In this document: in pieces, positions 39,006 through 63,521 of the stretch
Layout of the letters: each line of letters starts with the position of its first letter
How positions within the stretch are numbered: the stretch's first letter is position 1
NCBI GenBank assembly: GCA_017458065.1
Contig: JAFTGD010000042.1
Location: 1-64,000 of the forward strand
DNA from: Oscillospiraceae bacterium
GTDB taxonomy: Bacteria; Bacillota; Clostridia; Oscillospirales; Oscillospiraceae
Length of the DNA stretch: 64,000 bases
Reading direction: 5' to 3'
Position numbers and translations under genes: made by a program
The notes under the pieces: model-generated
What the model was told of the DNA's origin: nothing
What the model saw: only the letters and a program-made list of their open reading frames with translations
Databases searched by the model: none

Positions 39006-39029
39006 GGTTTGTCTCCTTTCTCCGGCAAA

Positions 39030-46033: not shown

Positions 46034-46051
46034 GAGCGGTTCCTCCAAACA

Positions 46052-46099
46052 GTTAGATCTGCATAACCGAATGTTAACACGATTCACTTATCCTGTCAA
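46052..46099 (-). promoter_or_regulatory. TetR gene promoter and operator
   Basis: On the minus strand TTGACA (46099-46094), a 17-nt spacer and TAACAT (46076-46071). GTTAGATCTGCATAAC at 46052-46067 follows after exactly 3 nt. It differs from GTTAG-N6-CTAAC at one position. Confidence 0.75.
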
Positions 46100-47095: not shown

Positions 47096-47809
47096 CTATT
47101 TCTTCACGCTGAGCAGCAGCCCGTTTTCGTCCTTCACCAGCGTGTATTCCGCGGCAATCGGGTTTTGATCGCCGACGATACAGTAGTCGCAGCACGGGGC
47201 CGTACAGCAGGTCCCCTCCCGGATCAGCGCCGCGTGCAGCTTCTGCATGGCCAGATGGTCGCAGTTGCACATCACCGGAAGGATATGCTCCATGTGATGC
47301 CGCTTGGCAAACTCGGCGTTCGGGCACTGGGTAAAACTATAGCGGACAACGCCGTTTTCCCTGTCGTATGAGAAGCCGCCCATGCGGAAAGAGGCCGGTA
47401 ATTCTTTGATCTCCTTTTCCCGCGTGTCGCTGGTCTTTTTGAATATCCTGCCGGCAAGGCGATTGTCCAGCTTGCGATTGAGATTAAACACCTTCCCCAG
47501 CGTATCGAAGCTTCCCATAAAGCAGTCATAGACATCCTGCTGAATCTCCTCGATCGGAGGCTTATCCGGAACGACGGCGTACCAGGCGAAGATCAGGATG
47601 GGATCGTATATGCTGACGGTTATTTTCGCGCCGCCCAGAGCGGGCTCATCTTTCAGATACTCCGCGTACTGAAGCTGTACTTTCTCCCATAGCGCTGCGG
47701 CGGTCTCATCGTCGTAATAGCGGTGCAGCAGCTTCTGCACGCATTCCTTCGCCTTCTTCGTATAGATTACATGTTTGCTGAGGTCAATGGGCAGTTCGCT
47801 TTCTTTCAT
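47096..47809 (-). CDS. L-2-amino-thiazoline-4-carboxylate hydrolase-like protein
   Basis: A 237-aa protein resembling the ATC-hydrolase family by its C-terminal half: CPNAEFAKRHHMEHILPVMC, then NCDHLAMQKLHAALIREGTC and a Cys-rich end. The founding enzyme opens the thiazoline ring of 2-amino-thiazoline-4-carboxylate on the way to cysteine, but most members are untested. ATG at 47809 follows GGGGGG. The third gene of a membrane-protein/ATC/ATC operon. It diverges most from the other two copies and carries extra cysteines (TCCTAPCCDYC). Confidence 0.72.
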   Translation of the reverse strand: MKESELPIDLSKHVIYTKKAKECVQKLLHRYYDDETAAALWEKVQLQYAEYLKDEPALGGAKITVSIYDPILIFAWYAVVPDKPPIEEIQQDVYDCFMGSFDTLGKVFNLNRKLDNRLAGRIFKKTSDTREKEIKELPASFRMGGFSYDRENGVVRYSFTQCPNAEFAKRHHMEHILPVMCNCDHLAMQKLHAALIREGTCCTAPCCDYCIVGDQNPIAAEYTLVKDENGLLLSVKK

Positions 47810-47831
47810 CGTTTCCCCCCGTGTTTTGTCT

Positions 47832-48548
47832 TTATTTGTATCCCTTGCCCTGCGAAAAGACAGGCGGCCAATAGGGCATGGGCTTTGCATTGATTTTCAG
47901 CTTGAAGTCGCAGTAGTCGCCGTCGGCAAAGCAGGTATGCTCCCGGAACAGAGGCACACCAAAGGCGCCGAACATCACGTAGTCCAGATTGCACAGATAG
48001 GGCATGTACGCCTCATAGCCATGGGCTTTTGCAAAGTTGGACAGCGGGCAGACCAGATTGTGATAGCTGAAATCATAGCCCGGTTCCGGCGGGATCATCG
48101 TTTTTGTTTCAAAGCTCCCCGGGTTGTTCGCCGCGTTGGCCGCATTCTGCGCATCCTTTTTCTGATACTTTTTGTTGAGAGACCTGACGTTGGTAAAGGA
48201 CCTGTGTGCGATCGTTTTCACGATCCCGGGCATGGCGCTGAAACGCCGCTCGTAGGCCAGAACCATCAGATGCCCGATCTCCTCCATGTCGACGCCATAG
48301 GTTTTCAGCACCTCGCCCATGGAGACGAAGCAGTAGGCGCCGGTCAGATTGCTCGTCCCGCTGACGTCGTCCCCGCCGATGTACGGGAAGTTCTCCAGCA
48401 TGTTCTTCTCATAGTGCTCCCAGATCTCGTCAAAGAGCGCGGCGTAAGGTTTTCCGCCGGCCTTTTCCAGCTCTGCGGCAATGGGTTTGAGAAGACTCTT
48501 CATTCCCTTTTTCAGCTTCGGGGCTTTTTTCATATAATAGTCGTGCAT
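47832..48548 (-). CDS. L-2-amino-thiazoline-4-carboxylate hydrolase-like protein
   Basis: A 238-aa member of the ATC-hydrolase-like family: an N-terminal helical region (MKKAPKLKKGMKSLLKPIAA) and the C-terminal core CPLSNFAKAHGYEAYMPYLC, NLDYVMFGAFGVPLFREHTC and FADGDYCDFKL. Second gene of a three-gene operon behind a GTTAG/CTAAC-type operator. Two further family members lie at 47096 and 58141, an unusual local expansion. Confidence 0.75.
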   Translation of the reverse strand: MHDYYMKKAPKLKKGMKSLLKPIAAELEKAGGKPYAALFDEIWEHYEKNMLENFPYIGGDDVSGTSNLTGAYCFVSMGEVLKTYGVDMEEIGHLMVLAYERRFSAMPGIVKTIAHRSFTNVRSLNKKYQKKDAQNAANAANNPGSFETKTMIPPEPGYDFSYHNLVCPLSNFAKAHGYEAYMPYLCNLDYVMFGAFGVPLFREHTCFADGDYCDFKLKINAKPMPYWPPVFSQGKGYK

Positions 48549-48565
48549 GTTGACCTCCTCTCATC

Positions 48566-49063
48566 TCAAAACAGTGTGCAGATCCATGCGGCAAGCGCGG
48601 AAGCCGCAGGAAAGATGACCAGCAGCTTCAGCAGCTGGCTTTTGATGTTGTAGCCGTACTTTTTCAGCGGATATACGCTTTCCACTTCCGGATAGTAATA
48701 CTGAAAGAATCTGAATTTCATCAGAAGAAAGTAATCAAAACAGATCATATCGTAGGCTTTGTATATCGTAAGAATCAGCACAAACCGCAGGAAGAACTGC
48801 CAGAAGCCAAAGCCGCTCCTGAAGCCGTCCCAGACAGCAATCACGCCGACGCCAAGCAAAATCAGGACGGCGAACATCATAAGCGTCCAGCCGATCGTTC
48901 TGGCGCCGTAAAACAGCTCCTTTTCTCTCGGCAGCAGGACTTCCTTTGCTTCCTTCGGCGCTGATGAAAAAAATCTCATCTCCTGGACAAACGCCACCGC
49001 CGAGAGCAGCATGATCGTAATCGCCGCACAAAACAGGATCGCCAGGAAAACCGTTAACAACAT
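48566..49063 (-). CDS. Uncharacterised membrane protein, paralogue family A
   Basis: A 165-aa protein with about four hydrophobic segments. The core FGFWQFFLRFVLILTIYKAY and DMICFDYFLLMKFRFFQYYY recurs in the proteins at 56635 and 58915. ATG at 49063 follows GGGAGG by 8 nt. First gene of an operon with two ATC-hydrolase-like proteins, directly behind a -10 plus operator. No known motif. Constant pairing with these hydrolases suggests a membrane partner or transporter. Confidence 0.82.
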   Translation of the reverse strand: MLLTVFLAILFCAAITIMLLSAVAFVQEMRFFSSAPKEAKEVLLPREKELFYGARTIGWTLMMFAVLILLGVGVIAVWDGFRSGFGFWQFFLRFVLILTIYKAYDMICFDYFLLMKFRFFQYYYPEVESVYPLKKYGYNIKSQLLKLLVIFPAASALAAWICTLF

Positions 49064-49109
49064 CTTGCGTCCCTCCCGTTCCATTTCTGATGATCAGTCC
49101 TGATCATAG

Positions 49110-49134
49110 ATTAGCTATATCTAACCATATCATA
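49110..49134 (-). promoter_or_regulatory. -10 and operator of family-A/ATC operon 1
   Basis: ATTAGCTATATCTAAC at 49110-49125 matches GTTAG-N6-CTAAC with one mismatch. The minus-strand -10 TATGAT (49134-49129) is exactly 3 nt away. TTAGCTATATCTAACCATAT is shared exactly with the element at 59463, so the two promoters are duplicates. Confidence 0.75.
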
Positions 49135-49296
49135 GCACGTTTTTCTCCAAAACACCAGCCCCCATTTCAGCTCAATTTGCCGGCTTTCTCTGTCCGCGGA
49201 CCCGATCCACATGCAGGGCACGGTCCGTCTGATCGGCAGATAAACGATCAGAACCTGAAACCAGGCAAGAAAACAGTAGCATTTTGACGTGTGCCG

Positions 49297-49368
49297 TGCT
49301 ATAATACCAAAAAAGTTAGACTCGGTTTACCTCATTGGGAGAAAAGTGTCCGTCACGGCGCTTTTTCT
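49297..49368 (+). promoter_or_regulatory. Extended -10 promoter and leader hairpin of the MBL-methyltransferase gene
   Basis: TGC-TATAAT at 49297-49305 is an extended -10. A terminator-like stem, AGAAAAG at 49340-49346 with CTTTTTCT at 49361-49368 around a CCG/CGG core, lies in the leader about 100 nt before the start codon. A degenerate GTTAG-N6-TTTAC lies at 49315-49330. The rest of 49135-49469 shows nothing else. Confidence 0.5.
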
Positions 49369-49469
49369 ATGCCCAATTGTTAAGCTCATCTAATTTTGAT
49401 GAATCCTGTTAAACTCGAATCTCTTCTTTTCCATTTTCAAGTCTGTTCTCATAAGGAGGATTATGTGCC

Positions 49470-51146
49470 ATGTCAAGAAAAGCGTCCAATTTTCAGAAAG
49501 TCGTGATGAGCTGGGGCTATCGCGGCAAGGAGATCTTCAAGCCGCTGAATACCGGCCGTATCGACGACCGCGTCGCCTGCGTGCGGGAATGGGTCGCCAA
49601 TATCTTTTTCTATACCAAAAACGGAACGACCGTCATGATTGACGCCGGATACAACTACGAGCGCCTGGGCGAGAAAATGGCCTGGCTGGGCATTGACCCC
49701 GCGTCGATCCGGCATATCCTCATCACCCACCAGGACACCGACCATGTCGGCGCGGTGGAAGACGACAGCGACGGGCTGTTCCGCGGCGCGACCCTGTATC
49801 TGAGCGAGATCGAAAACCGCTATCTGACCGGCGCGGTACGCCGCAAAGTGAGCTACGGGGCATACAAGCTCCCCATGGTGAAGACCTCCAATCCCCGCGT
49901 TCTCCTGAAGGATGGTCAGATCCTGGACATTGACGGCATCAAAATTGAGTGCATCCTGGTGCCGGGCCACACCTGGGGCCACATGGTGTATCTCATTGAC
50001 GACGCCTATCTCTTCACGGGGGACACCATCTGGTTCGGCGCCGACGGCGGTTACAGCTTCATCGACGGGCTTGCGGAGGACAACGAGCTGGCCAAGCGCT
50101 CTCTCGAGGAGCTGGAGCGGAAGCTGCGCTCCCGCGGCCTGACGCCAAAGGTCATCACCGGGCACACCGGCTGGTCAGACAATCTGGACTTTGTCTTTGC
50201 CCACAGGGACAAAGTCTGCAAGGGCAACCGGAAACAGAAGCCCCACGACCCCAAGGCCCCTTATGACGGCTACGACGAGACGGACGACACCGAGGAAAAC
50301 GCAAAAACCGTCCTGCTGGAGAAGCAGGATGAGAGCATTTTCCGCGAGACCAACAAACCGGCCTACGGCAACTGGATGCCGAAGGAGCTGGTGGCGGCCT
50401 CGGCTGCCGGGGCCGGCGTGCTTCTGGCCGCGGGCGCCGCGGTCGGCTGCTGTGCCGTCAAACGCGGCAGCAAGCTCGGGAAGCTGCTCTCCGCCGCGCT
50501 GCTGGCCGGGTCCGCCGGCTGCGGAGCGTTTACGGCTTACGGCGAGGTCGCCCGCCGCGCCTTCTCCTACGACGGTGAACGCAAGCTGTCCCGGCAGATC
50601 GTCGAGGGGACCGCTTCCTATGTCACGCTCCCCGAGGGCGGTGTCGGACTGGATGTGGGCTGCGGCAGCGGAGCGCTGACCATCGCCTGCGCCAAGCGGC
50701 ATCCCAATGCCCGCATGGTGGGCTGCGACATCTGGAGCGGCGCATACAAAGTGATTTTCACAAAAGAGGTCTGCGAACACAACGCCAGAGCAGAGGGCGT
50801 CTCCAATATACGCTTTACGGAAGGCAACGCCGTAAAGCTCCCCTTCGCCGACGGAAGCTTTGACGCTGTGACCAGCAACTATGTCTACCACAACATTACA
50901 GGGCACAACAAGCAGGAGCTCCTGCTGGAGACCCTGCGCGTCCTGAAGAAAGGCGGCACCTTCGCCATCCACGACCTGATGAGCAAGGCGCGTTACGGCG
51001 ACATGGATGCCTTTGTGCGGAAGCTCAGGGAACAGGGTTATGAGGACGTCCGCCTGATCCGCACGACGGACGGCAGCTTCATGGGCAAAACAGAAGCGGC
51101 GCTGCTGGGCCTGGGCGGCTCCACGCTGCTGGTCGGCAGAAAGTAA
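49470..51146 (+). CDS. MBL-fold hydrolase / SAM-methyltransferase fusion protein
   Basis: A 558-aa fusion. Residues about 35-250 are a metallo-beta-lactamase-like domain with HQDTDH (87-92), GHTWGH (166-171), TGDT (183-186) and GH (231-232), so a two-metal site is expected. After a charged linker, two hydrophobic segments (about 307-328 and 337-357) form a hairpin that could sit in the membrane. Residues about 385-558 are a class I methyltransferase with motif I LDVGCGSGALTIA and RVLKKGGTFAIHDL. TAAGGAGGATTATGTGCC precedes the ATG. I do not recognise this architecture as a named family. Confidence 0.85.
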   Translation: MSRKASNFQKVVMSWGYRGKEIFKPLNTGRIDDRVACVREWVANIFFYTKNGTTVMIDAGYNYERLGEKMAWLGIDPASIRHILITHQDTDHVGAVEDDSDGLFRGATLYLSEIENRYLTGAVRRKVSYGAYKLPMVKTSNPRVLLKDGQILDIDGIKIECILVPGHTWGHMVYLIDDAYLFTGDTIWFGADGGYSFIDGLAEDNELAKRSLEELERKLRSRGLTPKVITGHTGWSDNLDFVFAHRDKVCKGNRKQKPHDPKAPYDGYDETDDTEENAKTVLLEKQDESIFRETNKPAYGNWMPKELVAASAAGAGVLLAAGAAVGCCAVKRGSKLGKLLSAALLAGSAGCGAFTAYGEVARRAFSYDGERKLSRQIVEGTASYVTLPEGGVGLDVGCGSGALTIACAKRHPNARMVGCDIWSGAYKVIFTKEVCEHNARAEGVSNIRFTEGNAVKLPFADGSFDAVTSNYVYHNITGHNKQELLLETLRVLKKGGTFAIHDLMSKARYGDMDAFVRKLREQGYEDVRLIRTTDGSFMGKTEAALLGLGGSTLLVGRK

Positions 51147-51243
51147 GCCGGCAAAGCAAGCGAGCGGCCGACCGCAGCGGAGGATCAACCGGCGGAGGAT
51201 GAAAACACCCTGCCGCTCAGCGTGAAAAAGAGGATGACAAACG

Positions 51244-51735
51244 ATGGTGATAAAACTTATCTTGGAAGGTCTCGGGCTTGGCGCGCTGCTGGTCCTCATC
51301 TGCGCGGTCGGCATCCGAAACGGCGCGGTCGGAATGGTGCATCTGTACGATAAAAAAGTACAGGACCGCGTCATTTCGCTTCGCATGGCGACCGGGGAGG
51401 AGATCAGGAAACGGAGCCTGATCTTCAAGGTTCTGTGTGTTCCGGGGTATATGATCTATGTGCTTCTCTGCGTTTATGGGATCAACCACGCGCGGGGCTT
51501 TCTGCCGGGCTTCTGGCAGATGCTGGTGATCTTGTCCATCATGAATCTGATCGACCGTCTTCTGATTGACGGATATTGGGTGGGGCATACCGGCGCCTGG
51601 ATCATTCCGGGCACAGAAGATCTTCGGCCCTATATCACCGCGCGGGACAAGCGGCGGAAATGGATCATGGGGACCTTGGGCATGGCAGTGATTGCCGCTG
51701 TCCTCTCAGGCTTCATGTGCCTTGTCCTGCGGTAG
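51244..51735 (+). CDS. Uncharacterised membrane protein
   Basis: A 163-aa protein with four hydrophobic helices and a conserved-looking GYMIYVLLCVYGINHARGFL region, then LIDRLLIDGYWVGHTGAWII. Its layout (short N-terminal helix, charged loop, paired helices, D-x-x-x-D-Y-W) is reminiscent of the family-A membrane proteins at 48566, 56635 and 58915, but identity is too low to be sure. It follows the fusion gene and may be co-transcribed. Confidence 0.75.
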   Translation: MVIKLILEGLGLGALLVLICAVGIRNGAVGMVHLYDKKVQDRVISLRMATGEEIRKRSLIFKVLCVPGYMIYVLLCVYGINHARGFLPGFWQMLVILSIMNLIDRLLIDGYWVGHTGAWIIPGTEDLRPYITARDKRRKWIMGTLGMAVIAAVLSGFMCLVLR

Positions 51736-51853
51736 AGGAACTCCCGCGGCCGGACGCTGCTCCCGGTTGTTGGGACCGCTCATCTGAGAAGGAGACCTTG
51801 CATGAAAGATGTGAATCCGGCATGCCGGAGCCGCAACGTTGGGGCCGGTTGAT

Positions 51854-52828
51854 ATGACGGATGTTCAAAATGTCACCACGCTCTACGGTGCAGACACTTT
51901 GGAGGTCCAAAGCACCGATGACTGCCGTGTTTACCGCACGACGCATTCAAATGGGAGCGGTACCGTAGAGAAGTTTGACGTCCTTCCCGGCATCCAGCTG
52001 TACAACCAGCGTTTTCAGCTGACCAGCCTGGATTATGACCAAAGCACTCCGCGATATTCAAAGGATATTATCACCATCAATCACTGCCGCCGCGGCCGTT
52101 TTGAAGCGGAATTTGCAGACGGCGAGTTTCTGTACCTTGGTGAAGGCGACCTCGCGATGAACCTGCCGGAAAACGCGCCGGTTCGGCACAGCTTTCCGCT
52201 GACGTATTTTCAGGGAATTACAATCATTATTTCCGTTTCGAATGCGATGACAGGTATGTGTGATTCCGGCTCCATCCTCGGCCCTGTCCCGATCGACCTG
52301 TCCCTCTTAAGGGAGCGTCTTCTCAAAGGGAATGAGTTTATCATTTTTCGGTCCAATCCTGAATCTGAGCGCATTCTTGAAGACATGTACCGCGAGCGAC
52401 AGGATAGCCGGATTTTTTATCTGCGGCTGATGGTTCTGGAGCTTCTGTTATTCCTGCTGACATCGGGAGAAACCGTAGGGGAACGTCCGCCCTATTTTCA
52501 CCGAAATCATGTCATGACAATCAAGAACATGACGCAGTACCTGCTGGAGCATTTAGACCGTAACTTCACACTGGAAGAACTGTCCGGGCAGTTTGAGATT
52601 CCGCTTTCCACCATGAAGAAGTGCTTCAAGGCTGTTTACGGCAAACCGATTCACGCCTATGTGCGGGATTATCGAATGCAGACGGCGGCGAAGCTGCTCC
52701 GTGAAACAGATTTATCCATTGCTGAGATCGCTGAACAGATGAGCTATTCGAACCAAAGCAAGTTTACCGGCGCGTTTAAGACGCGCATGGGCTGTACGCC
52801 GCTCGCTTACCGAAATTTGAAAACCTGA
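51854..52828 (+). CDS. AraC-family transcriptional regulator
   Basis: A 324-aa protein with an N-terminal ligand region and a C-terminal double HTH: FTLEELSGQFEIPLSTMKKC, FKAVYGKPIHAYVRDYRMQT and LSIAEIAEQMSYSNQSKFTG. The N-terminal part resembles siderophore-responsive AraC regulators (SPRYSKDIITINHCRRGRFE-like segment), though this is a weak impression. ATG at 51854 is preferred over an upstream TTG. It lies upstream of a ZinT-like gene on the same strand. Confidence 0.9.
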   Translation: MTDVQNVTTLYGADTLEVQSTDDCRVYRTTHSNGSGTVEKFDVLPGIQLYNQRFQLTSLDYDQSTPRYSKDIITINHCRRGRFEAEFADGEFLYLGEGDLAMNLPENAPVRHSFPLTYFQGITIIISVSNAMTGMCDSGSILGPVPIDLSLLRERLLKGNEFIIFRSNPESERILEDMYRERQDSRIFYLRLMVLELLLFLLTSGETVGERPPYFHRNHVMTIKNMTQYLLEHLDRNFTLEELSGQFEIPLSTMKKCFKAVYGKPIHAYVRDYRMQTAAKLLRETDLSIAEIAEQMSYSNQSKFTGAFKTRMGCTPLAYRNLKT

Positions 52829-52929
52829 AAGAGGAAAAGTGAACTTTTTGGATTAACGGTTATCATACAAAATATGCTATGATTGTCCCCGGCGGTTAGC
52901 TCTGCCTAATTTTGAACGGAGGATCTATC

Positions 52930-53634
52930 ATGAAAAAATTCCTGTCCTGTTTTCTGGTTTTTGCCATGCTCATCTCTGCCGGCGCCGCTTTCGCTTTTGC
53001 GGATGAAGCGCCGGGGCCGGATTTTCTTGCACTGATTTCAGGCGAGAACGGAACCACTTACATTAATCTTTTTGATGAAATTCTCAAGGAAGACTACGAT
53101 GATCTCTGGCTGAAATATTGCGGAGGGGACGCAGACTATGTTACCGTCCTGAAGACATATATCAGCGGCGATCTCTACGGTAAGGACGCCTTTGACATTT
53201 ATGGCGATGGCAGCAGCGGCTTTATCTTCGACTGCTTTTACATCAACGATGTCAAGTCCATCACTGTCCTCGGCGACACAATAACCATTGAAAAAAACGA
53301 CGGCAGTTCGGAAACTCATACCTACAGTTACATCGGGAAGCGCCTTGTCGGCGACGGCGAGACCATGTATTATAACGGGGATGCGTTCAGTGCCGCGTTT
53401 GAATGTGATGTTTATCGCAGCAACGATGAGGCTGGAGAATTCAACTACTTTTTCTTCCGGGACGACACAATGGAGACCACATACCATCTTGAATTCCGGT
53501 ACGGAACCGATATGGACAGTCTCTCCCAATACATGATGGGAAAGTACGCCTATTGGCTGGCGGCAGGCTTTGATGCAGCCGCTGATTCCGAAACAACAGA
53601 AAATGTGATTGCGCTCTTCTGCGGCGAAAAGTAA
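52930..53634 (+). CDS. Secreted ZinT/YodA-like lipocalin-fold protein
   Basis: A 234-aa exported protein: a Sec signal (KKFLSCFLVFAMLISAGAAF, cleavage after AFA) and a body that ends like ZinT, with YHLEFRYGTDMDSLSQYMMG and KYAYWLAAGFDA. ZinT binds zinc and hands it to importers in proteobacteria. The usual His-rich N-terminal stretch is absent, so metal binding would rely on the fold's internal histidines. ATG at 52930 follows CGGAGGATC. Its position after AraC and near ABC/ECF genes hints at metal supply. Confidence 0.7.
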   Translation: MKKFLSCFLVFAMLISAGAAFAFADEAPGPDFLALISGENGTTYINLFDEILKEDYDDLWLKYCGGDADYVTVLKTYISGDLYGKDAFDIYGDGSSGFIFDCFYINDVKSITVLGDTITIEKNDGSSETHTYSYIGKRLVGDGETMYYNGDAFSAAFECDVYRSNDEAGEFNYFFFRDDTMETTYHLEFRYGTDMDSLSQYMMGKYAYWLAAGFDAAADSETTENVIALFCGEK

Positions 53635-53744
53635 TTTCCGGCCATCTTTCAGCGAAGAATACACCCGCAGTCAGCGCCGTCTGATACGCTGCCGCAGGCG
53701 CGAATGTATTCAAGATCATCCCCGTGCTTTTAAAGCATCATTAC

Positions 53745-53797
53745 AATCTCCCGTACATCGGCATGAAGGAACATCCGATTGTGCGGGAGATTTCTTT
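53745..53797 (+). terminator. Intrinsic terminator of the ZinT-like gene
   Basis: AATCTCCCG and CGGGAGATT, with an inner ATCGG/CCGAT stem, run into TTTCTTT. The stretch 53635-53744 holds no supportable gene. Confidence 0.75.
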
Positions 53798-53831
53798 GTG
53801 AGGAAAGAATTGTTTCCAAATATATTCCCTG

Positions 53832-53972
53832 TCACCAGGCATCGTTAACCCAGTGAAGCAATTCCGTCTTCAAGGCCTCGCGGTCTTGCTTGCATTCCTC
53901 GGGATGCTGCCTCTCAGACTTGAAGGCCATTTTGTAGATCCAGGGCAGTTGGGTAAGCAGCGCGTGGCTCAT
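53832..53972 (-). CDS. Small ORF coupled to the SRPBCC gene (46 aa)
   Basis: A 46-codon frame that starts inside the stop of the SRPBCC gene (ATGA overlap). Its sequence looks protein-like: SHALLTQLPWIYKMAFKSER, then a charged helix and LLHWVNDAW. It could be a genuine tiny partner, or the frameshifted C-terminus of a longer ancestral protein. No known motif. Confidence 0.45.
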   Translation of the reverse strand: MSHALLTQLPWIYKMAFKSERQHPEECKQDREALKTELLHWVNDAW

Positions 53973-54424
53973 GTGGTCATAAGCGTCCCGCTATCCCGGG
54001 GCAGCAGTCGGATCCATTTCCTCTGCCGGTGCGCATAGAATGCTTTTGCCCACAGCCAGATGAATATGGTTTTCCATCCGGCGCGGATCTCCACCTCATC
54101 GGTGTATTCCGTCTCCTCGCCCCGCTCTCTCAGCGTGATTTTATGATCCCAAACCCGAACGTGTTCGTTGTGTTCCCTGCTCTGGATAATGTCGATATCA
54201 AAACGCTCGATCCGGATCGTATGCGTTCCAAAGGGGATAAAACCGAAGAGCTTGAAACGGTAGAAGGACAGGTCGCCGACTCGCCAGACCGGGTCTTTGT
54301 CTTCGCTGAGCGGTGTAAAACTCGCATACGGCGAGGCAACGGCTTGCAATGTCTCCAAATGTTGAAGCTTTTTGAATACGACTTCCCGCTTTGCTGGGAA
54401 GACCGATGTCTTATGTACAATCAT
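53969..54424 (-). CDS. SRPBCC-family (START/Bet v1-like) protein
   Basis: A 151-aa protein with the SRPBCC pattern: an opening strand with HKTSVFPAKREVVFKKLQHL, a central antiparallel sheet and a long C-terminal helix (WKTIFIWLWAKAFYAHRQRK). The fold binds hydrophobic ligands or lipids; function here is unknown. It overlaps the upstream membrane-protein gene by 14 nt and continues the leftward operon. Confidence 0.82.
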   Translation of the reverse strand: MIVHKTSVFPAKREVVFKKLQHLETLQAVASPYASFTPLSEDKDPVWRVGDLSFYRFKLFGFIPFGTHTIRIERFDIDIIQSREHNEHVRVWDHKITLRERGEETEYTDEVEIRAGWKTIFIWLWAKAFYAHRQRKWIRLLPRDSGTLMTT

Positions 54425-55100
54425 TCAAGTTACCCTTCCTTTTGAGATGGATCAGTCCAGCAAGCATGAACAGCATCCAACCGGCCGATTCCAGCGTCAC
54501 GGAGATGTTGCGGGTCAGCGCAGACGGGATCCGTTTGAGGAGAATGTCAGCTATAAGCATAACAGCCGGACAGCAAACCGCCCACCACTTGCCGAGATAG
54601 AGCTTGCCGGAGAGGATAAGCTGCCAGAGGACGATCGAAATCCCGAGATCTTCCATCAGGAAAAACACGATGATCGGGATCTCATACGGATGCTCGATCC
54701 TTTCAATCAACGTCAGACTAACTTCCGGCGCGATCCCCAGGTTGGCGGCTGTCTGAAATACGATGGGCGGCAGGCAGTCAATGGCGATGAGATAAAGGGA
54801 CGATACCGCGTAGCAGACCGTAGCAACGATAGACAAGCACTTCACCCAACGCTTTGCCTGCACGGAACAGATGATCTCATACCAACCCGACAAGCCGACG
54901 CACATGGCGGGGACCCCCAGCATCGCCAGAATCATACACAGAGCATAAGACCAGATTGGGCGAGTCATCCATGCCTCCGCATCGCTCATCAGCCCAAAGC
55001 CGTCCATCCAATAGGAGAGCAGCATCATCAGCACTCCCGCGCAGACGCCGATCAGGAGACGAACTTTCAATGGTCTATCTCTACGATTCTCTTTCTGCAT
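54411..55100 (-). CDS. Uncharacterised multi-pass membrane protein (paralogue of 46340 family)
   Basis: A 229-aa protein with about six hydrophobic helices. The start (RPLKVRLLIGVCAGVLMMLL) and overall spacing parallel the protein at 46340. ATG at 55100 has no Shine-Dalgarno site but lies one base after the stop of the relic frame at 55102-55248, suggesting translational re-initiation in an ancestral operon. Compared with the 46340 protein its ends differ, so they are distant paralogues. Confidence 0.72.
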   Translation of the reverse strand: MQKENRRDRPLKVRLLIGVCAGVLMMLLSYWMDGFGLMSDAEAWMTRPIWSYALCMILAMLGVPAMCVGLSGWYEIICSVQAKRWVKCLSIVATVCYAVSSLYLIAIDCLPPIVFQTAANLGIAPEVSLTLIERIEHPYEIPIIVFFLMEDLGISIVLWQLILSGKLYLGKWWAVCCPAVMLIADILLKRIPSALTRNISVTLESAGWMLFMLAGLIHLKRKGNLNDCT

Positions 55101-55101
55101 A

Positions 55102-55248
55102 TCACACAAAAAACAGTAGTCCAAAGAACATGATCGCGCCGGCCCAGTTCCCGCTGCCGCCAATGCGGGTCGGCATCAGCACGAGCATCAAAAGGGTCGT
55201 GTTGAACACGCAGGCCCATTTCGGCAGTGGCGTCAGGCCGGGGATCGC
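55102..55248 (-). pseudogene. 3' relic of a membrane-protein gene (46340 family)
   Basis: A reading frame closed by TGA at 55102-55104 encodes TPLPKWACVFN followed by two hydrophobic stretches (TTLLMLVLMP, GAIMFFGLLFFV). It matches the TPFPKWYCVFN region and C-terminus of the intact protein at 46340-47041. The upstream three quarters are missing; the frame runs straight into the stop of the hydrolase gene at 55249. Confidence 0.7.
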
Positions 55249-56061
55249 TCATTCTGTTTCATCCTCCGATAAAGAAACCACCTTTTGCAGGGAAAGCCTG
55301 TGCACGGCATCAACTTCCTCGATGAAGCTCTCCGTGTTTTCACCGATCAGCCCGCCATGACCCATATCCGGGAAAATCTTGACCGCAAACGGATAGCCCT
55401 GTTTCTTCAGCTCCTCGAGGCCTGCGGAGAGCTTTTTATCCACCGTTCCCTTGATCCCGTACCAGATGTGCATATCTGTGTTTTTGAAAACGCTGTAATC
55501 CGTCTTCTTGCCGATCATGCAGCGGTCCTGATTCTTCCAGCTTTTCCATGTGGCCTTGGTATATAAGATTCGGTCGGCCTCCTCAAGGCTGCGGCCGGTG
55601 ATCCTCGCCAGAAAGCGCTTGCGCAGCTTCCCGGCCCGACCCATGACAACGAAGAAAAGCCCGGTGAAGAAGAACAAGTAGACCTCTTTGAGTGCCTCGC
55701 TTTTGATATCCGGGTAATCCCGCAGCGACATGCCGTCCGCGATGGTCGTGGTGATTTGCAGCCGGTTGTCCTCCAGGATCTGCATCAGCGTGCGGCAGCC
55801 GTAGGACAGCCCGTATAGGATATCCACCCTGCCGCCGTAGTTTTGTATGATATAGTCCTCCAGCGCCTTTGCCTCATAGGCAATCGACTTGAATTCTGTC
55901 TCCGGCTCAGAGGGGTTGAAGCCGTCATAGGCCAGCAGGATCACGTGGTATCTCTCCGCGATCTTCTGCGCCGTCGGCAGCACGCCGAGATAGCTCGTCC
56001 CTCCGCCGTGAAGCAGGACCATAAGCTCTTTGTTCTCTTGCCCGAATTCAAAGAATTTCAT
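55249..56061 (-). CDS. Alpha/beta hydrolase
   Basis: A 270-aa alpha/beta hydrolase: oxyanion loop LLHGGGTSYLG near residue 16, nucleophile elbow YGLSYGC near 83 and catalytic His in PDMGHGGLIG near 240. It shares YDGF and NYGGR landmarks with the hydrolase at 38238. A hydrophobic stretch (YLFFFTGLFFVVMG) in the cap could touch the membrane or a lipid-like substrate. It overlaps the truncated hydrolase gene upstream by 4 nt. Confidence 0.87.
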   Translation of the reverse strand: MKFFEFGQENKELMVLLHGGGTSYLGVLPTAQKIAERYHVILLAYDGFNPSEPETEFKSIAYEAKALEDYIIQNYGGRVDILYGLSYGCRTLMQILEDNRLQITTTIADGMSLRDYPDIKSEALKEVYLFFFTGLFFVVMGRAGKLRKRFLARITGRSLEEADRILYTKATWKSWKNQDRCMIGKKTDYSVFKNTDMHIWYGIKGTVDKKLSAGLEELKKQGYPFAVKIFPDMGHGGLIGENTESFIEEVDAVHRLSLQKVVSLSEDETE

Positions 56062-56609
56062 CTGCTCACGCTCCCTTGGCCGTTCCAGACACAGCGGCTT
56101 GCGTAATAGCGCCGGATGTCCTCGATGATTTCCCGCTCGCCGTCACGGCCTTCTTTGACAAAGGTGAAGACCGGCCAGACGATGTTTTCGGGCTTGAAGC
56201 GCCGCAGCATCCTCTCATGTACCCGGATCGTGAACTCCGTCTCGTCCATCAGGTCGTAGTCCGGCAGCAGCGGATACAGCGGAATCCATAACTCAGCTCC
56301 GGTCTCGGAGATATAGCGCTTGATGGAGCCTTTGAAGGGAAGCTGCCAGCGGCGGGAGCCTCCTCCGGGGAAATAGACCACGGCGCGGTCCGGCTCGCTG
56401 CCCGCTTTTTTTCCCACGATGATATGGAAGCCGTCCAGCTGTTCGTCCCGGAATTCATAGCCTCGGAGCGAGGGCAGCTTGAATTTGAATTTCTTTTGAA
56501 CGTCATAGGACTCCTGCTTGAATTCCTCGTAGCTCTCCTCCTGATGGAGTGAGCTGCCCTTGACGACTTTGCGTACGATGGGCTTCAACAGACTGTATAA
56601 TAAGCTCAT
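56058..56609 (-). pseudogene. Alpha/beta hydrolase copy with internal in-frame deletion
   Basis: A 183-aa product nearly identical to residues 1-145 and 282-300 of the 311-aa hydrolase at 59897. It lacks the 136 residues between Trp145 and Trp281. The missing part contains the nucleophile elbow (GFSGG) and the catalytic-His region (GMFHSW), so the protein cannot be an active hydrolase. Start, GGAGGG site and frame remain intact, so it may still be made. The last 18 residues differ from the full-length copy. Confidence 0.85.
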
Positions 56610-56634
56610 TCTAATCCCTCCGATTCATGGATCG

Positions 56635-57141
56635 TCATGCTTTCGCGATCAGCGTAAGGATCCAGGCCGTCAGCGCACAGACGACGGGAGTCATAACGAT
56701 CTGTCCGAGCTGCTGCCTGCGGTTATATCCGAAGTCCTGCCAACCGGCACAGCCCTCGGCCTCCGGAAAGAAGCGCTGAAAGAAGTGCGTCTTCGTCAGC
56801 AGGAAATAGTCCAAGCCGATAATGTCGAATGCCTTCACGCCGAAGCCAATTATTAAGAAGCGCAAGAACAGCTGCCCAAAGCCGTAACCCTGTTTGACTC
56901 CGTCCAGACCGCCCCAGATGAACACGCCGATCATCATGGCCAGGATCAGTAAAAGCGCCGCCCAACCGGCCATGCGCTTTGCGCTCATTGGCAGGTGGTT
57001 CAGCCTTGGCTCAAGGCGTTCCTGCACGTCTTTCGGGAAGTTCTTGATCAAGCCCTTATAGGGAAGCGTCACCGTGGCGGACCAGATCATCAGCCACAGC
57101 AGCGCCATCATAATCACTGTCAAAAGGATCGTCAGACTCAT
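56635..57141 (-). CDS. Uncharacterised membrane protein, paralogue family A
   Basis: A 168-aa protein of the same family as 48566 and 58915, with GYGFGQLFLRFLIIGFGVKA and LDYFLLTKTHFFQRFFPEAE, and GYNRRQQLGQIV before the last helix. About four hydrophobic segments, no motif of known function. ATG at 57141 overlaps the stop of the acetyltransferase gene as ATGA, so the two are translated together. Confidence 0.83.
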   Translation of the reverse strand: MSLTILLTVIMMALLWLMIWSATVTLPYKGLIKNFPKDVQERLEPRLNHLPMSAKRMAGWAALLLILAMMIGVFIWGGLDGVKQGYGFGQLFLRFLIIGFGVKAFDIIGLDYFLLTKTHFFQRFFPEAEGCAGWQDFGYNRRQQLGQIVMTPVVCALTAWILTLIAKA

Positions 57142-57782
57142 TTCAGCGCAGCTCCGGCTTCCCGCATCAGATCGTACATGTGGAACTTTTCTCCGCAATT
57201 TCTGACGCGGTCGAGCGTCATCCCAAGATGCTGATACCGGAGGCTCTTGTCCTTGTCGTCCGTGTCAAGGATCACCGGAAGCCCTCTTTCGTCGGCGAGT
57301 GCGTAAACGTACTCCATCATCCGCCGCATGTAGCCCTGCTTCTGATACTCGGGCCGGACGACGAGAACTTCGATCCGGATAAACTTCCGCTTTGCTTTCC
57401 GCATTCTCGTCTCAATGGTGTTTCCCTCCGCAAAGCAGGCCCGGATAAAAGACTTCATATTTTTAAGACCGCCAAGCGCCTTTTTCTCGGCAAAAATCAT
57501 TTTCATGCCGTCCGCAAACCCGATGGACCCGACGCCGTCCCCGGACAGGACCAGAAAGCCCTCCTGTTTTTCGGACGTGGTATAAAGAAGCCCGCTGTTG
57601 TAGGAAGCCTGTATGATGGCCTCCATGTAAGCGCGCATGTCCTCACGGGACCTGATATATTTTATCAGGCCGAGGTCGTCCTCACTGTATTTGTAATCAT
57701 AGAATGTATCCGCAATCCGGCAGGAGATCTCATGCACCTGCTCGCCGGTCAATCCGCTGAGTTTTATCATGGATGCCAACAT
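57138..57782 (-). CDS. GNAT-family N-acetyltransferase
   Basis: A 214-aa protein with the GNAT acetyl-CoA signature in RIEVLVVRPEYQKQGYMRRM and the following VILDTDDKDKSLRYQHLGMT helix-strand. The acceptor substrate is unknown. It lies in the leftward operon with membrane proteins and hydrolases and is coupled to a family-A membrane protein by a 4-nt overlap. The start could also be Met5 (57770). The stretch 57783-57901 upstream has no clear gene. Confidence 0.88.
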   Translation of the reverse strand: MLASMIKLSGLTGEQVHEISCRIADTFYDYKYSEDDLGLIKYIRSREDMRAYMEAIIQASYNSGLLYTTSEKQEGFLVLSGDGVGSIGFADGMKMIFAEKKALGGLKNMKSFIRACFAEGNTIETRMRKAKRKFIRIEVLVVRPEYQKQGYMRRMMEYVYALADERGLPVILDTDDKDKSLRYQHLGMTLDRVRNCGEKFHMYDLMREAGAALK

Positions 57783-57901
57783 TCTTCTTTACCTCTGAGT
57801 ATTATTTGAGAGAGCCACGGCCGGCAGCGGTTGACGCGCTTGCAGTATTCCTTCTGCAGGCGCTCAAAGAGGTCGCCGCCGTGCGTTTGCCGCCGCGGCA
57901 A

Positions 57902-58114
57902 TCAGGATATTTCCCCTGTTTCGGCCATTTTCTTCAACAGGATCAGACCCATCATCAGCACCAGAGCATGTCCGAAGGATTCTGTTCCGTGATCCAGCTG
58001 CTTGATCAGCCAGGGAAGGAGAGCCAAAAGATTCCCCAAATCGCCAATCACGTAGAGGAGGCATCCGATGATTCCGACGATCAGCATTCTTCTGGTCTTC
58101 CTGACGGTCTTCAT
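57902..58114 (-). CDS. Small membrane protein (70 aa)
   Basis: A 70-aa protein with two hydrophobic helices (RMLIVGIIGCLLYVIGDLGN and HALVLMMGLILLKKM). Its first helix resembles the N-terminus of the 46340-type membrane proteins (LIGDLL), so it may be a shortened relative. GAGGAGAACGA precedes the ATG, so it is probably translated. It follows the ATC-hydrolase-like gene at 58141. Confidence 0.62.
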   Translation of the reverse strand: MKTVRKTRRMLIVGIIGCLLYVIGDLGNLLALLPWLIKQLDHGTESFGHALVLMMGLILLKKMAETGEIS

Positions 58115-58140
58115 TCGTTCTCCTCTCCCCTCTTAACAGC

Positions 58141-58803
58141 TTACTTGGAGCCGACGTCGCGGAGGGCCTCCGGCTCCTGATCCCCCAGGACCCAGTAGTT
58201 GCATTCCCCGTCGCCGTCTGCCAGAGTCTTGTGACGGATCAGCTTGCCGTGAGCTGCGCCGCAGGTGAGCTGGTCGATGTAGCACAGATTCGGGAGGAAA
58301 TCGATATACCCGTGCCGTCGGGCAAAATCGTTCAGCGGGCAGGTATCGTAGACAAAGGCGATCCCCTTGTCATGCCCCTCCGGATTCAGCCGGATCTTCC
58401 AGGTGTTCCCCCAGGCGTTGCCGCGAAGCCTGTCGGCTTTTTTCTTGTAGTTCTCCAGATACCGGTAGAACAGCCGGACGATCCAGCGGTGCTTCAGCAG
58501 CTTGTTCATATCGAAATGGGCGAGCATGCGCAGGCTTTTCCCCATGGCCGCGTCGATCAGGATCTGCAGATCCTCCTTGCCGAACGCCCGGTCGACCGCC
58601 TCATAGAAAGCGAAGAAGGCGTAGGCTTCCAGCAGGTTGTTGGCCATCGGGTTCTTCCGTCCGCCAAGGTCGCCCTCTTCCCGGATCCACTGCTCGTCGA
58701 GGGCAACCGTCCTCTCCCAGCGCGTTTTTGCTTCCGCCGGCGTATAGTGCTCCGCCAGCCACCTTTTCATCGCCGGTTCAAACATCTTGAGATATTTGTC
58801 CAT
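58141..58803 (-). CDS. L-2-amino-thiazoline-4-carboxylate hydrolase-like protein
   Basis: A 220-aa member of the same family as 47096 and 47832: CPLNDFARRHGYIDFLPNLC, YIDQLTCGAAHGKLIRHKTL and ADGDGECNYWVLGDQEPEAL. The Asp/Gly/Cys end resembles the family core. It belongs to the operon starting with the family-A membrane protein at 58915, the same gene pairing as in operon 1, which argues for a functional partnership. Confidence 0.75.
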   Translation of the reverse strand: MDKYLKMFEPAMKRWLAEHYTPAEAKTRWERTVALDEQWIREEGDLGGRKNPMANNLLEAYAFFAFYEAVDRAFGKEDLQILIDAAMGKSLRMLAHFDMNKLLKHRWIVRLFYRYLENYKKKADRLRGNAWGNTWKIRLNPEGHDKGIAFVYDTCPLNDFARRHGYIDFLPNLCYIDQLTCGAAHGKLIRHKTLADGDGECNYWVLGDQEPEALRDVGSK

Positions 58804-58815
58804 TCTTTCTGCCCC

Positions 58816-58905
58816 CTATCGCCATTCTCTGCTGATCAGCAGACCGTTTTCCCGCCGCTCCGGCGGATACTTCTTCAGCGCTTCGCTGTCCATCAGGCCT
58901 TTCAT
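58816..58905 (-). CDS. Small ORF with strong ribosome-binding site (29 aa)
   Basis: Between the family-A gene and the ATC-like gene, GAGGAGGTCAT precedes an ATG opening a 29-codon frame (MKGLMDSEALKKYPPERREN, then nine residues). Spacing and the near-ideal Shine-Dalgarno favour translation. It may be a genuine microprotein or the remains of a gene. Confidence 0.45.
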   Translation of the reverse strand: MKGLMDSEALKKYPPERRENGLLISREWR

Positions 58906-58914
58906 ATGACCTCC

Positions 58915-59406
58915 TCATAAAATGGAGCAGATCCACGCTGTCAGTACTGCGGCAAAAGGCAGCGTAACGATCTGTCTGAGCTGCTCGCTGCGGTTATAGC
59001 CGAATTGATGATACCCGGCACATCCCTTTGTTTCCGGCAGATAATGCTGGAAAAACTGCGTTTTTGTGATCAAAACATAGTCCAGGGCGAGGATATCAAA
59101 GGCCTTCACGCCGAACAGGATAATGAGGAAGCGCTTGAGGAACTGCCCGAAGCCGTATCCCTGCCGGATGCCGTCCCAGCCGCCGTAGACGATCACGCCG
59201 AGAAAGCCCAGCATACACAGCGCCATACAGACCCAGCCGATCACCGGCGCGGCCGGAAACGGCGGCTTGTGGTCCTTCGCCTTTTCCCGGATATCCTCCG
59301 GGAAAAAGTCCATCAGCCTTTTCCACGGCAGAAAGTACGTGGCCGCCCAGATCATCAGAAAAAGAAGCAGGCACATGAGCAGGGTGAGAAAGATTGTCGT
59401 CAGCAT
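58915..59406 (-). CDS. Uncharacterised membrane protein, paralogue family A
   Basis: A 163-aa protein with GYGFGQFLKRFLIILFGVKA, LDYVLITKTQFFQHYLPETK and GYNRSEQLRQIV, the third copy of the family in this window. About four hydrophobic segments. ATG at 59406 follows GGAGAC. First gene of operon 2, directly behind an exact GTTAG-N6-CTAAC operator. The most similar copy is the one at 56635. Confidence 0.85.
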   Translation of the reverse strand: MLTTIFLTLLMCLLLFLMIWAATYFLPWKRLMDFFPEDIREKAKDHKPPFPAAPVIGWVCMALCMLGFLGVIVYGGWDGIRQGYGFGQFLKRFLIILFGVKAFDILALDYVLITKTQFFQHYLPETKGCAGYHQFGYNRSEQLRQIVTLPFAAVLTAWICSIL

Positions 59407-59462: not shown

Positions 59463-59487
59463 GTTAGCTATATCTAACCATATAATA
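59463..59487 (-). promoter_or_regulatory. -10 and operator of family-A/ATC operon 2
   Basis: GTTAGCTATATCTAAC at 59463-59478 is an exact operator match. The minus-strand -10 TATTAT (59487-59482) lies exactly 3 nt away, the same geometry as at 49110 and 46052. Confidence 0.8.
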
Positions 59488-63520: not shown

Positions 63521-63521
63521 C

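Follow-up and report, generated by a model that had tools for sequence, protein, structure and literature searches.

Two operons of an Oscillospiraceae bacterium, both within the 64,000-nt stretch of contig JAFTGD010000042.1 that we analysed (the window), probably belong to a large family of modular, iron-repressed cassettes of enzyme genes that is spread over Clostridia of the gut and rumen and their neighbours. The cassettes are built on a superfamily of four-helix membrane proteins (MEM and MEM2) that is missing from Pfam, and, judging by their putative operators, they look like an iron-starvation regulon. Communities of the gut and rumen are shaped by competition for iron, and in this genome (96.4% complete) neither of the two siderophore synthetase domains searched for was recognised (Condensation and IucA_IucC, 0 matches each). 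With a sequence-defined operator, the genes listed behind it and MEM relatives by the hundred, the role of these cassettes becomes a testable question.

The initial annotation had described three membrane-protein paralogues, three ATC-hydrolase-like (PF14196) proteins and several alpha/beta hydrolases or esterases in two operons with duplicated promoters, and this grouping is real (Table 1). The six membrane-protein and PF14196 genes that it named are all open frames at the expected positions on the minus strand, and both operons open with a MEM gene downstream of a repeated promoter element. Hydrolases and esterases are indeed present, with the qualification that one esterase gene (56058–56609) is a deleted copy of the intact gene at 59897–60832: it lacks residues 145–280 of the latter, including the nucleophile elbow GFSGG, and its origin as a copy is supported by DNA repeats D2 (90%) and D6 (88%). 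The true start of the PF14196 gene at 47096 is probably internal, because its longest frame overlaps the upstream gene. Other members of the region also recur elsewhere: DUF6796 membrane proteins accompany MEM and PF14196 genes at other loci, the 151-aa protein belongs to a cluster found near MEM genes in 4 of 80 named loci, and the two parts of the metallo-beta-lactamase–methyltransferase fusion are usually separate cassette genes in relatives. An FtsX-type permease (60980–63685) adjoins the cassette.

Table 1. Features of the window discussed in the text, with the basis of each assignment.
Feature	Coordinates	Strand	Basis
FecCD-type iron/siderophore importer (Peripla_BP_2, FecCD, ABC ATPase)	7888..10795	-	profile matches
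Alpha/beta-hydrolase-like protein, GSSLG elbow, importer operon end	38238..39005	-	clustering; no own Pfam match
Double ABC ATPase, taken as ECF A component	39030..40445	-	PF00005, 2 stretches
ECF T component (CbiQ)	40439..41176	-	PF02361
Trep_Strep membrane protein, taken as ECF S component	41176..41760	-	PF09605, 221 bits
ABC half-transporter partner	41835..43571	-	PDB-sequence comparison
ABC half-transporter	43564..45309	-	PDB-sequence comparison
TetR-type regulator of importer cassette	45425..46087	-	family match
DUF6796 membrane protein	46340..47041	+	family match
PF14196 protein, operon 1	47096..47890 (longest ORF)	-	35.9 bits
PF14196 protein, operon 1	47832..48548	-	43.5 bits
MEM-1, small membrane protein, operon 1 first gene	48566..49063	-	longest ORF to 49084; family alignments
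Putative iron-box operator ATTAG-N6-CTAAC, 1 mismatch, before operon 1	49110..49125	.	motif scan
Metallo-beta-lactamase fold + class I SAM methyltransferase fusion	49470..51146	+	domain matches
MEM2, divergent second subfamily of MEM superfamily	51244..51735	+	hhalign
151-aa protein, cluster f33	53969..54424	-	no Pfam family
DUF6796 membrane protein	54411..55163	-	family match
Alpha/beta hydrolase, nucleophile elbow GLSYG	55249..56061	-	PF12697
Esterase copy with internal deletion	56058..56609	-	compared with intact 59897-60832 copy
MEM-3	56635..57141	-	longest ORF to 57198; paralogue alignment, profile match
GNAT acetyltransferase, operon 2	57138..57782	-	PF00583
PF14196 protein, operon 2	58141..58803	-	80.0 bits; AlphaFold2 model
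MEM-2, operon 2 first gene	58915..59406	-	longest ORF to 59439; AlphaFold2 model
Putative iron-box operator GTTAGCTATATCTAAC, exact, before operon 2	59463..59478	.	motif scan
Intact Abhydrolase_3 esterase, nucleophile elbow GFSGG	59897..60832	-	profile match

The three membrane proteins proved to be paralogues, two of them being 36 and 38% identical to the first, with 43 invariant columns in a three-paralogue alignment. The longest-ORF starts of these genes are probably too early, since the profile matches stop at 49063, 57141 and 59406; for MEM-2 the end at 59406, as first annotated, thus appears better than 59439. The AlphaFold2 model of MEM-2 consists of four long helices (mean pLDDT 90.4). 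MEM2 was tied to the MEM family by one-to-one hhalign comparisons (97.7 and 98.4% probability), and both have in common a D-x4-D...E signature that may bind metal. One genome scan confirmed 330 MEM relatives. No Pfam family matched more than 2 of 71 MEM members at E ≤ 0.05, MEM-1 matched no Pfam family and no NCBIfam family above its cut-off, and MEM had no PDB fold match at E ≤ 0.001.

All three window PF14196 proteins exceed the curated threshold of 28.1 bits. The genome carries six copies, a fourth being found further along this contig, about 8 kb past the window (C19:71772). Every member of a set of 52 (A6) matched PF14196 at E ≤ 0.001. C155, C174, D177, R190, T193 and C201 (58141 numbering) are invariant in 30 of 30 PF14196 proteins, window copies included, so that the loss of all catalytic residues raised at the outset is not apparent; across the broader set of 52, invariance is limited to C155, D177 and C201, with C174 and R190 at 90% or more. 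When the AlphaFold2 model of the 58141 protein (mean pLDDT 94.7) was compared with the PDB by Foldseek, 46 of the best 50 of 132 rows (E ≤ 10) were H-NOX, V4R or TRAPP proteins by title, all weak matches (best E 4e-3, TM-scores at most 0.44). An earlier report describes a sequence relationship of PF14196 with the HNOB/V4R/TRAPP ligand-binding folds, and a 3-Cys cluster (PMC5847659). With this resemblance in fold, the label ‘thiazoline hydrolase’ appears to be an over-interpretation, and we suggest that ‘ATC hydrolase’ here, where the context is one of iron, be taken to mean a ligand-binding-like fold.

The duplicated promoters also held up: a 41-nt element, 88% identical between its copies (49111–49151 and 59464–59504), precedes the MEM gene at the head of each operon and contains the palindrome GTTAG-N6-CTAAC, with one mismatch at 49110. 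The site at 59463, 56 nt before MEM-2 starts, adjoins a promoter-like −10 TATTAT (59487–59482, minus strand). This iron-repressor-type operator was context that the initial annotation had missed. In the 80 named MEM loci the exact palindrome occurs 90 times (0 in controls), permuted-arm inverted repeats (n = 29) at most 2 times each, and the same arms 0–3 times with spacers of 1–5 and 7–15 nt and 11 times with none. The shorter TTAG-N6-CTAA occurs 138 times, vs. 0 in 590 kb of controls; 17 of the 80 loci are without it. It precedes transcription-unit starts for 43/150 cassette genes and 40/91 iron, metal or importer genes, compared with 21/289 other genes and 0/267 in control regions, and sites lie upstream of FeoA/DtxR, DUF3793/DUF2325, ABC/ECF and FecCD importer genes as well. 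A flavodoxin gene follows a site-preceded DUF3793 gene. The whole genome has 16 exact sites, 12 of them on the window's contig, whereas the reversed pattern occurs once. When up to two mismatches are tolerated, no clear excess is seen in the window (13 sites vs. 8.9 expected); its own importer cassette has one-mismatch sites only (45350, 46052 and 46299), and its FecCD-type importer has an exact operator, GTTAGCCAACGCTAAC, at 10820–10835.

Regulators that could act on such sites are present. Three DtxR-type proteins in the genome exceed the cut-off (C19:112456, C19:111743 and C77:46507), and one more does so with in-frame neighbours joined. EqbA, the DtxR-type repressor of the equibactin siderophore cluster, is reported to bind in vitro to a palindrome with the core GTTAGATGTATCTAAC; after EDTA, Fe2+ or Zn2+ strengthens this binding, and Mn2+ does so to a lesser degree (PMC3672683). 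The exact 16-mer is also present at G000:C73:6893. In relatives, a site lies between DtxR and FeoA (L049, L061, L062 and L067); this apparent autoregulation pattern was not seen at the genome's clearest DtxR genes, whose surrounding 14-kb stretches (L222, L224) contain no TTAG-N6-CTAA. With an iron-repressor-type operator, the cassettes would be part of a probable iron-starvation regulon, not of a nutrient or detoxification pathway.

The association of MEM with PF14196, for which a genome-neighbourhood survey had been proposed, extends well beyond this genome. PF14196 genes occur at 37 of the 80 named MEM loci vs. 0 of 40 control regions, with none called within the fetched stretch at the other 43. 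Among 119 relatives, PF14196 is found in 20/22 MEM-bearing genomes vs. 23/97 without MEM, and at class level in 14/19 vs. 44/372, counts that include this genome itself and weak matches and whose Fisher tests ignore the kinship of genomes. Outside this genome, 19 of 33 MEM places have a PF14196 match no more than 10 kb away, where about 0.8 would be expected. Gene content differs widely between loci, and sets are reshuffled from strain to strain.

The suspected link to nearby transport, here of the siderophore type, is likewise borne out. Cassette genes stand in or beside importer operons in the window (38238–45309) and at L139, L142 and L154; the protein ending the window's operon clusters with the alpha/beta hydrolase at 55249–56061. 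For the 43564 ABC protein, among the best 60 of 242 PDB matches, the best half-size ones are YbtP and IrtA (317 and 288 bits vs. 240 for Sav1866), and double-size eukaryotic ABCB exporters score above YbtP (404 vs. 317 bits, over two stretches); its partner does not discriminate (MsbA 265, YbtP 261, IrtA 260 bits). ECF components S, T and A follow in a row (PF09605, PF02361 and a double PF00005), Trep_Strep (PF09605) being what we take to be the S component. ECF ATPase genes are not enriched at MEM loci (11/80 vs. 5/40 controls), and no ferric-siderophore reductase was identified.

Given the putative iron-repressor switch and the adjoining iron-uptake genes, the most likely task of the cassettes is to act on molecules that carry iron, and not to form a general thiazoline-degrading pathway. 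Very probably, an Fe2+-loaded DtxR-family repressor on GTTAG-N6-CTAAC would keep the operons off, and iron scarcity would bring them on together with Feo, FecCD-type, FTR1-like and YbtPQ-like/ECF importers; we lowered our confidence in this step slightly, from one a little higher still, because no TTAG-N6-CTAA surrounds the clearest DtxR genes. It is fairly likely that the cassette proteins target a small iron-binding molecule imported or exchanged by those importers. Somewhat short of an even chance is the full sequence in which the importers deliver a ferric chelate, the cassette enzymes process it and iron is released. Here the H-NOX/V4R-like pocket of PF14196, with its conserved Cys/Asp/Cys/Arg/Thr/Cys, would bind or cleave a ring part of the chelate, ester or amide bonds would be cut by alpha/beta hydrolases and the fragments tailored by SAM methyltransferases and reductases, while MEM, MEM2 and DUF6796 might keep these steps at the membrane or transport the substrate or a metal. 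We propose that genes are reshuffled between strains because the available chelators differ. Processing of imported iron chelates is our best overall reading, at about an even chance, and thiazoline siderophores are one plausible substrate class.

The absence of both synthetase domains favours the use of foreign chelates. The cassettes could conversely build a metal-binding product, either a metallophore or a redox shuttle, independently of NRPS or NIS synthetases. Methyltransferases, reductases and hydrolases would tailor it, MacB-like pumps would send it out and YbtPQ-like/ECF systems would take it back. Methyltransferases MT6, MT12, MT13 or LCM (any in 50/80 loci), ApbA-type reductases (16/80), PEMT-type enzymes (5/75 unlabelled neighbours) and aldo/keto reductases (3/75), long stretches of genes in one direction that include HMA, ZIP and P-type ATPase genes (L082) and the adjoining FtsX-type permease would suit such a product. 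We nonetheless consider this unlikely: no backbone-forming enzyme appeared among the 25 of 86 families listed for the 75 neighbours, just as Condensation and IucA_IucC are absent, and locus composition is too variable for one product. A broader formulation seems slightly less doubtful, namely a combinatorial, partly mobile, NRPS-independent iron-chelate toolbox, undescribed in gut and rumen anaerobes, in which methyltransferases and hydrolases under iron repression combine with PF14196 ligand-pocket proteins and MEM/MEM2, and that either makes a new metallophore class or captures and recodes foreign siderophores. Methyltransferases in such numbers are easier to reconcile with biosynthesis or tailoring than with the dismantling of chelates.

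An iron-starved cell might instead use the cassettes to modify its own lipids, quinones or cofactors, with the membrane proteins, UbiE-like or PEMT-like methyltransferases and esterases acting on membrane molecules. These families are frequent, and flavodoxin, a typical iron-sparing product, lies behind a site-preceded DUF3793 gene; repeated placement in importer operons and strain-to-strain reshuffling point to variable outside molecules, and we regard such remodelling as improbable. Least probable is the function first proposed, uptake and dismantling of thiazoline-containing small molecules with PF14196 as ring opener. L-ATC hydrolase gave PF14196 its name, the likeness extends to a profile match and three conserved Cys, the conserved residues are intact, and the ABC importer's closest annotated plasmid relative lies within an equibactin-like NRPS cluster. 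Unlike L-ATC hydrolase, however, these proteins come as strongly diverged paralogues, with several in a genome, and stand behind an operator that points to iron, not to a nutrient; the divergence within the PF14196 set (14–52% identity to the 58141 copy) speaks against a single shared substrate, and the fold resembles, if weakly, ligand-binding proteins.

Several known systems resemble parts of this arrangement. XusABC of Bacteroides reportedly allows a gut commensal to use foreign siderophores, much as proposed here, and differs in being based on an outer-membrane receptor; we know of no gene family that it and the cassettes have in common. YbtPQ (yersiniabactin importer) and IrtAB (mycobactin importer) are the nearest half-size matches of 43564 among the matches listed; unlike them, the window ABC pair is accompanied by an ECF Trep_Strep module. 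The equibactin locus of Streptococcus equi ICESe2 (EqbA-N), as described, resembles the window in its DtxR-type repressor and GTTAG-N6-CTAAC core, a fused ABC pair likened to YbtPQ by its authors, a further importer, an alpha/beta hydrolase and a mobile element (PMC3672683). Equibactin is an NRPS product, whereas the window genome has no Condensation domain, and the part of the description consulted mentions no MEM, PF14196, DUF6796 or LCM genes (PMC3672683). MEM (58915 copy) occurred in no plasmid record searched. Finally, Anaerococcus prevotii plasmid pAPRE01 (NC_013164.1) carries an NRPS siderophore-type cluster whose ABC gene is 46% identical to window 43564, and which comprises a DtxR-type regulator, a thioesterase, a PPTase, an AMP ligase, an NRPS, a reductase/MT, an alpha/beta hydrolase and an ABC pair; it differs from the window in its NRPS genes and resembles it in the regulator, the alpha/beta hydrolase and an exact operator, GTTAGCCAATACTAAC, between regulator and thioesterase.

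The cassettes are built from gene families that recur together in other genomes, and a shared palindromic operator, GTTAG-N6-CTAAC, stands in their promoters. In the source genome (3.6 Mb in 83 contigs; the window lies on C19, a contig of 273 kb), strand and spacing suggest that two gene runs each form a single operon encoding members of a four-helix membrane-protein family (MEM) and of Pfam family PF14196 (ATC_hydrolase). The esterase copy in operon 2 has lost its nucleophile elbow to an internal deletion; it seems that a local duplication of the MEM-esterase pair was followed by decay of one esterase. Between the operons, the metallo-beta-lactamase part of a fusion protein reads HQDTDH instead of HxHxDH. 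Relatives mostly have the metallo-beta-lactamase and the methyltransferase as two separate recurrent cassette genes, and their fusion here suggests that the two act together.

Cassette genes and operator sites of the source genome, in window numbering unless a contig is named
Feature	Position	Strand	Context
TetR, two ABC half-transporters, Trep_Strep, CbiQ, double ABC ATPase			importer cassette, left of the operons
alpha/beta-hydrolase-like gene	38238-39005		importer cassette
PF14196	47096-47890	minus	operon 1
PF14196	47832-48548	minus	operon 1
MEM	48566-49063	minus	operon 1
metallo-beta-lactamase/methyltransferase fusion	49470-51146	plus	between operons 1 and 2
MEM2, divergent MEM relative	51244-51735	plus	between operons 1 and 2
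AraC regulator	51839-52828	plus	between operons 1 and 2
151-aa protein	53969-54424	minus	operon 2
DUF6796	54411-55163	minus	operon 2
alpha/beta hydrolase	55249-56061	minus	operon 2
deleted esterase copy	56058-56609	minus	operon 2
MEM	56635-57141	minus	operon 2
GNAT	57138-57782	minus	operon 2
PF14196	58141-58803	minus	operon 2
MEM	58915-59406	minus	operon 2
intact Abhydrolase_3 esterase	59897-60832		directly upstream of operon 2
operator	10820		FecCD-type importer (7888-10795) downstream
operators	64338-65265		second TetR-ABC-ECF cassette
operator	72521		PF14196, divergent
operator	82005		DUF3793-flavodoxin-DUF2325
operator	100780		alpha/beta hydrolases, divergent from operon with FTR1-like first gene (named by eye)
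operators	202032, 204790		DUF6796 and BAAT-type hydrolase genes, ApbA between both sites
operator	on contig C78		orphan LCM methyltransferase

The initial annotation had treated the membrane proteins and the ATC-hydrolase-like proteins as parts of one recurring system, and this association holds beyond the genome in which it was noticed. Among 119 relatives (own genome included), MEM occurred in 22, PF14196 in 43, and both in 20 of the 22 MEM genomes (p = 5e-9 by Fisher test, relatedness ignored). With weak matches included, PF14196 was found at class level in 14/19 MEM genomes vs. 44/372 others (p = 4e-9). Outside the window's genome, 19 of 33 MEM places lay at most 10 kb from a PF14196 match, where about 0.8 would be expected (two fragments of one MEM gene in relative genome G046 were counted as one place).

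A scan of named genomes with one peptide pattern yielded 330 MEM relatives, the best 80 of which were retained as loci. By record title, the relatives belong mostly to Clostridia and Erysipelotrichaceae, with two Treponema and a few Bacteroidales, Chloroflexi and Bacillus; nearly all are MAGs, many from ruminants, and a search of plasmid records found no MEM. Using local profiles, we compared the 80 named loci (1.18 Mb) with 40 control regions (0.59 Mb) of MEM-bearing relatives, drawn from the set of relative genomes and not from the named genomes. The families absent from all 40 controls were DUF6796 (43/80 loci), the divergent subfamily MEM2 (38/80), PF14196 (37/80), LCM methyltransferases (27/80), ApbA (16/80), HMA (15/80) and Trep_Strep (8/80). 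Methyltransferases (50/80 vs. 1/40) and alpha/beta hydrolases (47/80 vs. 1/40) were similarly distributed, followed by ABC proteins (38/80 vs. 5/40, with a fused-type profile that also catches ordinary ABC ATPases), ECF ATPase (11/80 vs. 5/40) and FeoB (7/80 vs. 2/40). The gene caller overlooked MEM in 7/80 loci although the scan had it, and 75 of the 87 unlabelled neighbour genes were scanned. Named loci and those from the relative genomes lie partly on the same contigs and were hence not summed; by gene map, loci L145 and L153 are nearly one region. Gene order and content are reshuffled among loci, mostly within co-directional runs, the stretch in locus L082 comprising 25 genes. In loci L084 and L085, a FecCD permease gene and a binding-protein-like gene sit among MEM, MT6 and LCM methyltransferase genes (in L084 also DUF6796), all within a single co-directional run.

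The copy of a 41-nt repeat ahead of operon 2 overlaps GTTAGCTATATCTAAC (59463), and the copy ahead of operon 1 overlaps ATTAGCTATATCTAAC (49110). Across the 80 loci, TTAG-N6-CTAA occurred 138 times (124 intergenic; 63/80 loci) vs. 19.2 in mononucleotide shuffles, and in the control regions not at all (shuffles 5.2); in the count for the window's own group, the overlap of the window with locus L007 makes a single site appear twice. The longer form, GTTAG-N6-CTAAC, was found 90 times, other spacers within 1-15 nt 0-3 times, spacer 0 11 times, and permuted-arm versions at most twice each. The window's genome holds 16 sites, 12 of them on C19, vs. 1 for the reversed pattern. When first genes of transcription units were defined by an upstream gap of at least 60 nt, a site preceded 43/150 cassette, 40/91 iron, metal or importer, 21/289 other and 0/267 control first genes, and in relatives (loci L049, L061, L062 and L067) sites stand between DtxR and FeoA genes. 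Against the operator reading, the window has 13 sites vs. 8.9 expected when two mismatches are allowed, and its importer cassette has one-mismatch sites only. An exact operator at 7090 (region 3147-7816) is flanked by a large BcrAD_BadFG/DUF2229 CoA-enzyme activase gene and, in divergent orientation, by a Crp-type regulator; this region is possibly also iron-repressed.

The classical DtxR/IdeR consensus has a spacing other than N6, and we rejected that box as a description of the operator. A better fit is the site of EqbA, the DtxR-like repressor of the equibactin cluster in Streptococcus equi. In vitro, EqbA recognises a palindrome that precedes the equibactin NRPS genes and has the core GTTAGATGTATCTAAC; after EDTA treatment, Fe2+ or Zn2+ strengthens its binding and Mn2+ does so less, and the authors termed the site unlike other iron boxes (PMC3672683). 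It is the same N6-spaced palindrome as the cassette operator. The EqbA findings make metal-loaded DtxR the likeliest controller of the cassettes, and it would very probably repress their operons at the operator; this probability is slightly lowered by the stretches around the genome's clearest DtxR genes, where no site was found, a result that also counts against the operator reading itself. DtxR-type genes do exist in the genome; a tandem pair lies at C19:111.7-112.8 kb, close to a P-type ATPase. In the surrounding locus (L222, C19:108001-122000), the pair is also near MacB-like genes, with no TTAG-N6-CTAA site around.

The operator also occurs on plasmids. In Anaerococcus prevotii pAPRE01, it separates a DtxR-type regulator from the opening gene of an NRPS siderophore-type cluster, the ABC gene of which is the best plasmid match to the window gene at 43564 (46%). 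The Subdoligranulum plasmid OY725878.1 (L229) has two exact operators along with Trep_Strep, CbiQ, ECF ATPase, ABC, DtxR and TetR genes, and on OY725857.1 (L228) a site starts 42 nt ahead of the ABC match. These plasmid copies suggest mobility for at least the importer part. The exact GTTAGATGTATCTAAC 16-mer also occurs in the window's genome at C73:6893, not beside a known iron gene; this locus (L226) has three operator-like sites (5681, 6894 and 9521) near LPXTG-like surface-protein genes, as judged by eye, and no recognised iron gene nearby.

Aligned with one another, the three window MEM proteins have 43 invariant columns. They had no Pfam match and no NCBIfam match above cut-off (one chance match fell far below), and among 71 relatives every Pfam family matched at most 2 members. 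An AlphaFold2 model shows four long helices (mean pLDDT 90.4, confident), for which a PDB fold search returned nothing at E ≤ 0.001; PDB sequence searches with the MEM and PF14196 profiles found only designed proteins with weak E-values. Across the 71 relatives, T15, P47, G68, K112, D115, D120, F129, F130, P135, G147 and N149 are invariant and E136 almost so. MEM2 is homologous to MEM (profile comparison, 98.4% probability over 153 columns, one-to-one) and in 14 sequences retains the D-x4-D pair and nearly always the following Glu, a signature that may bind metal. Near-duplicates or fragments were removed by hand from the alignments (MEM: A3, 22/27 sequences kept, and A5, 71/76; PF14196: A4, 30/46, and A6, 52/56; and A8, 14/20).

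All three window PF14196 proteins score above the curated Pfam cut-off. In 30 relatives C155, C174, D177, R190, T193 and C201 (numbering of the 58141 copy) are invariant; in a wider set of 52, C155, D177 and C201 remain so, and C174 and R190 are conserved in at least 90%. The AlphaFold2 model (mean pLDDT 94.7) comes nearest, weakly, to the folds of H-NOX/guanylate cyclase, TRAPP/Bet3 and PoxR/MopR, which account for 46 of the 50 matches listed (best E 4e-3). This agrees with a published comparison that links the HNOB, V4R and ATC hydrolase domains, the last two sharing a 3-Cys cluster (PMC5847659). The label ‘ATC hydrolase’ is therefore no proof of thiazoline chemistry, and a literal reading as a thiazoline system appears very improbable. 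The H-NOX-like fold led us to consider a tetrapyrrole or heme role as well and favours it, as does tolI, a gene labelled ATC hydrolase in the cluster for tolyporphin, a tetrapyrrole (PMC8401325). No recurrent heme-enzyme family was noticed among the genes of the loci.

We infer that the cassette proteins would handle iron chelates. The chance that they dismantle or recode imported chelates is about even; this reading is favoured by the importer neighbourhood, where an alpha/beta-hydrolase-like gene closes the importer operon, by the alpha/beta hydrolases, and by the absence of Condensation and IucA_IucC domains from the genome. That the cassettes biosynthesise chelates rather than dismantle them is unlikely, despite the many methyltransferases and reductases that speak for it, and iron-sparing remodelling is more doubtful still. 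A co-expression study of Faecalibacterium places an ATC hydrolase term and a FeoA term in different modules and is of no help to the iron-cassette reading (PMC9674144). An iron-acquisition regulon as such is of a known kind; we found no description of the enzyme cassettes or of the MEM/MEM2 superfamily in searches of an open-access library.

Other genes of the region also have counterparts elsewhere. YbtA and PchR are examples of AraC regulators that sense siderophores; a protein similar by eye to the window's AraC regulator occurs in locus L107, in a cluster found in 4/80 loci. An FtsX-like permease (60980-63685) adjoins an ABC ATPase, and similar large permease-like genes, again by eye, are present in 11/80 MEM loci.
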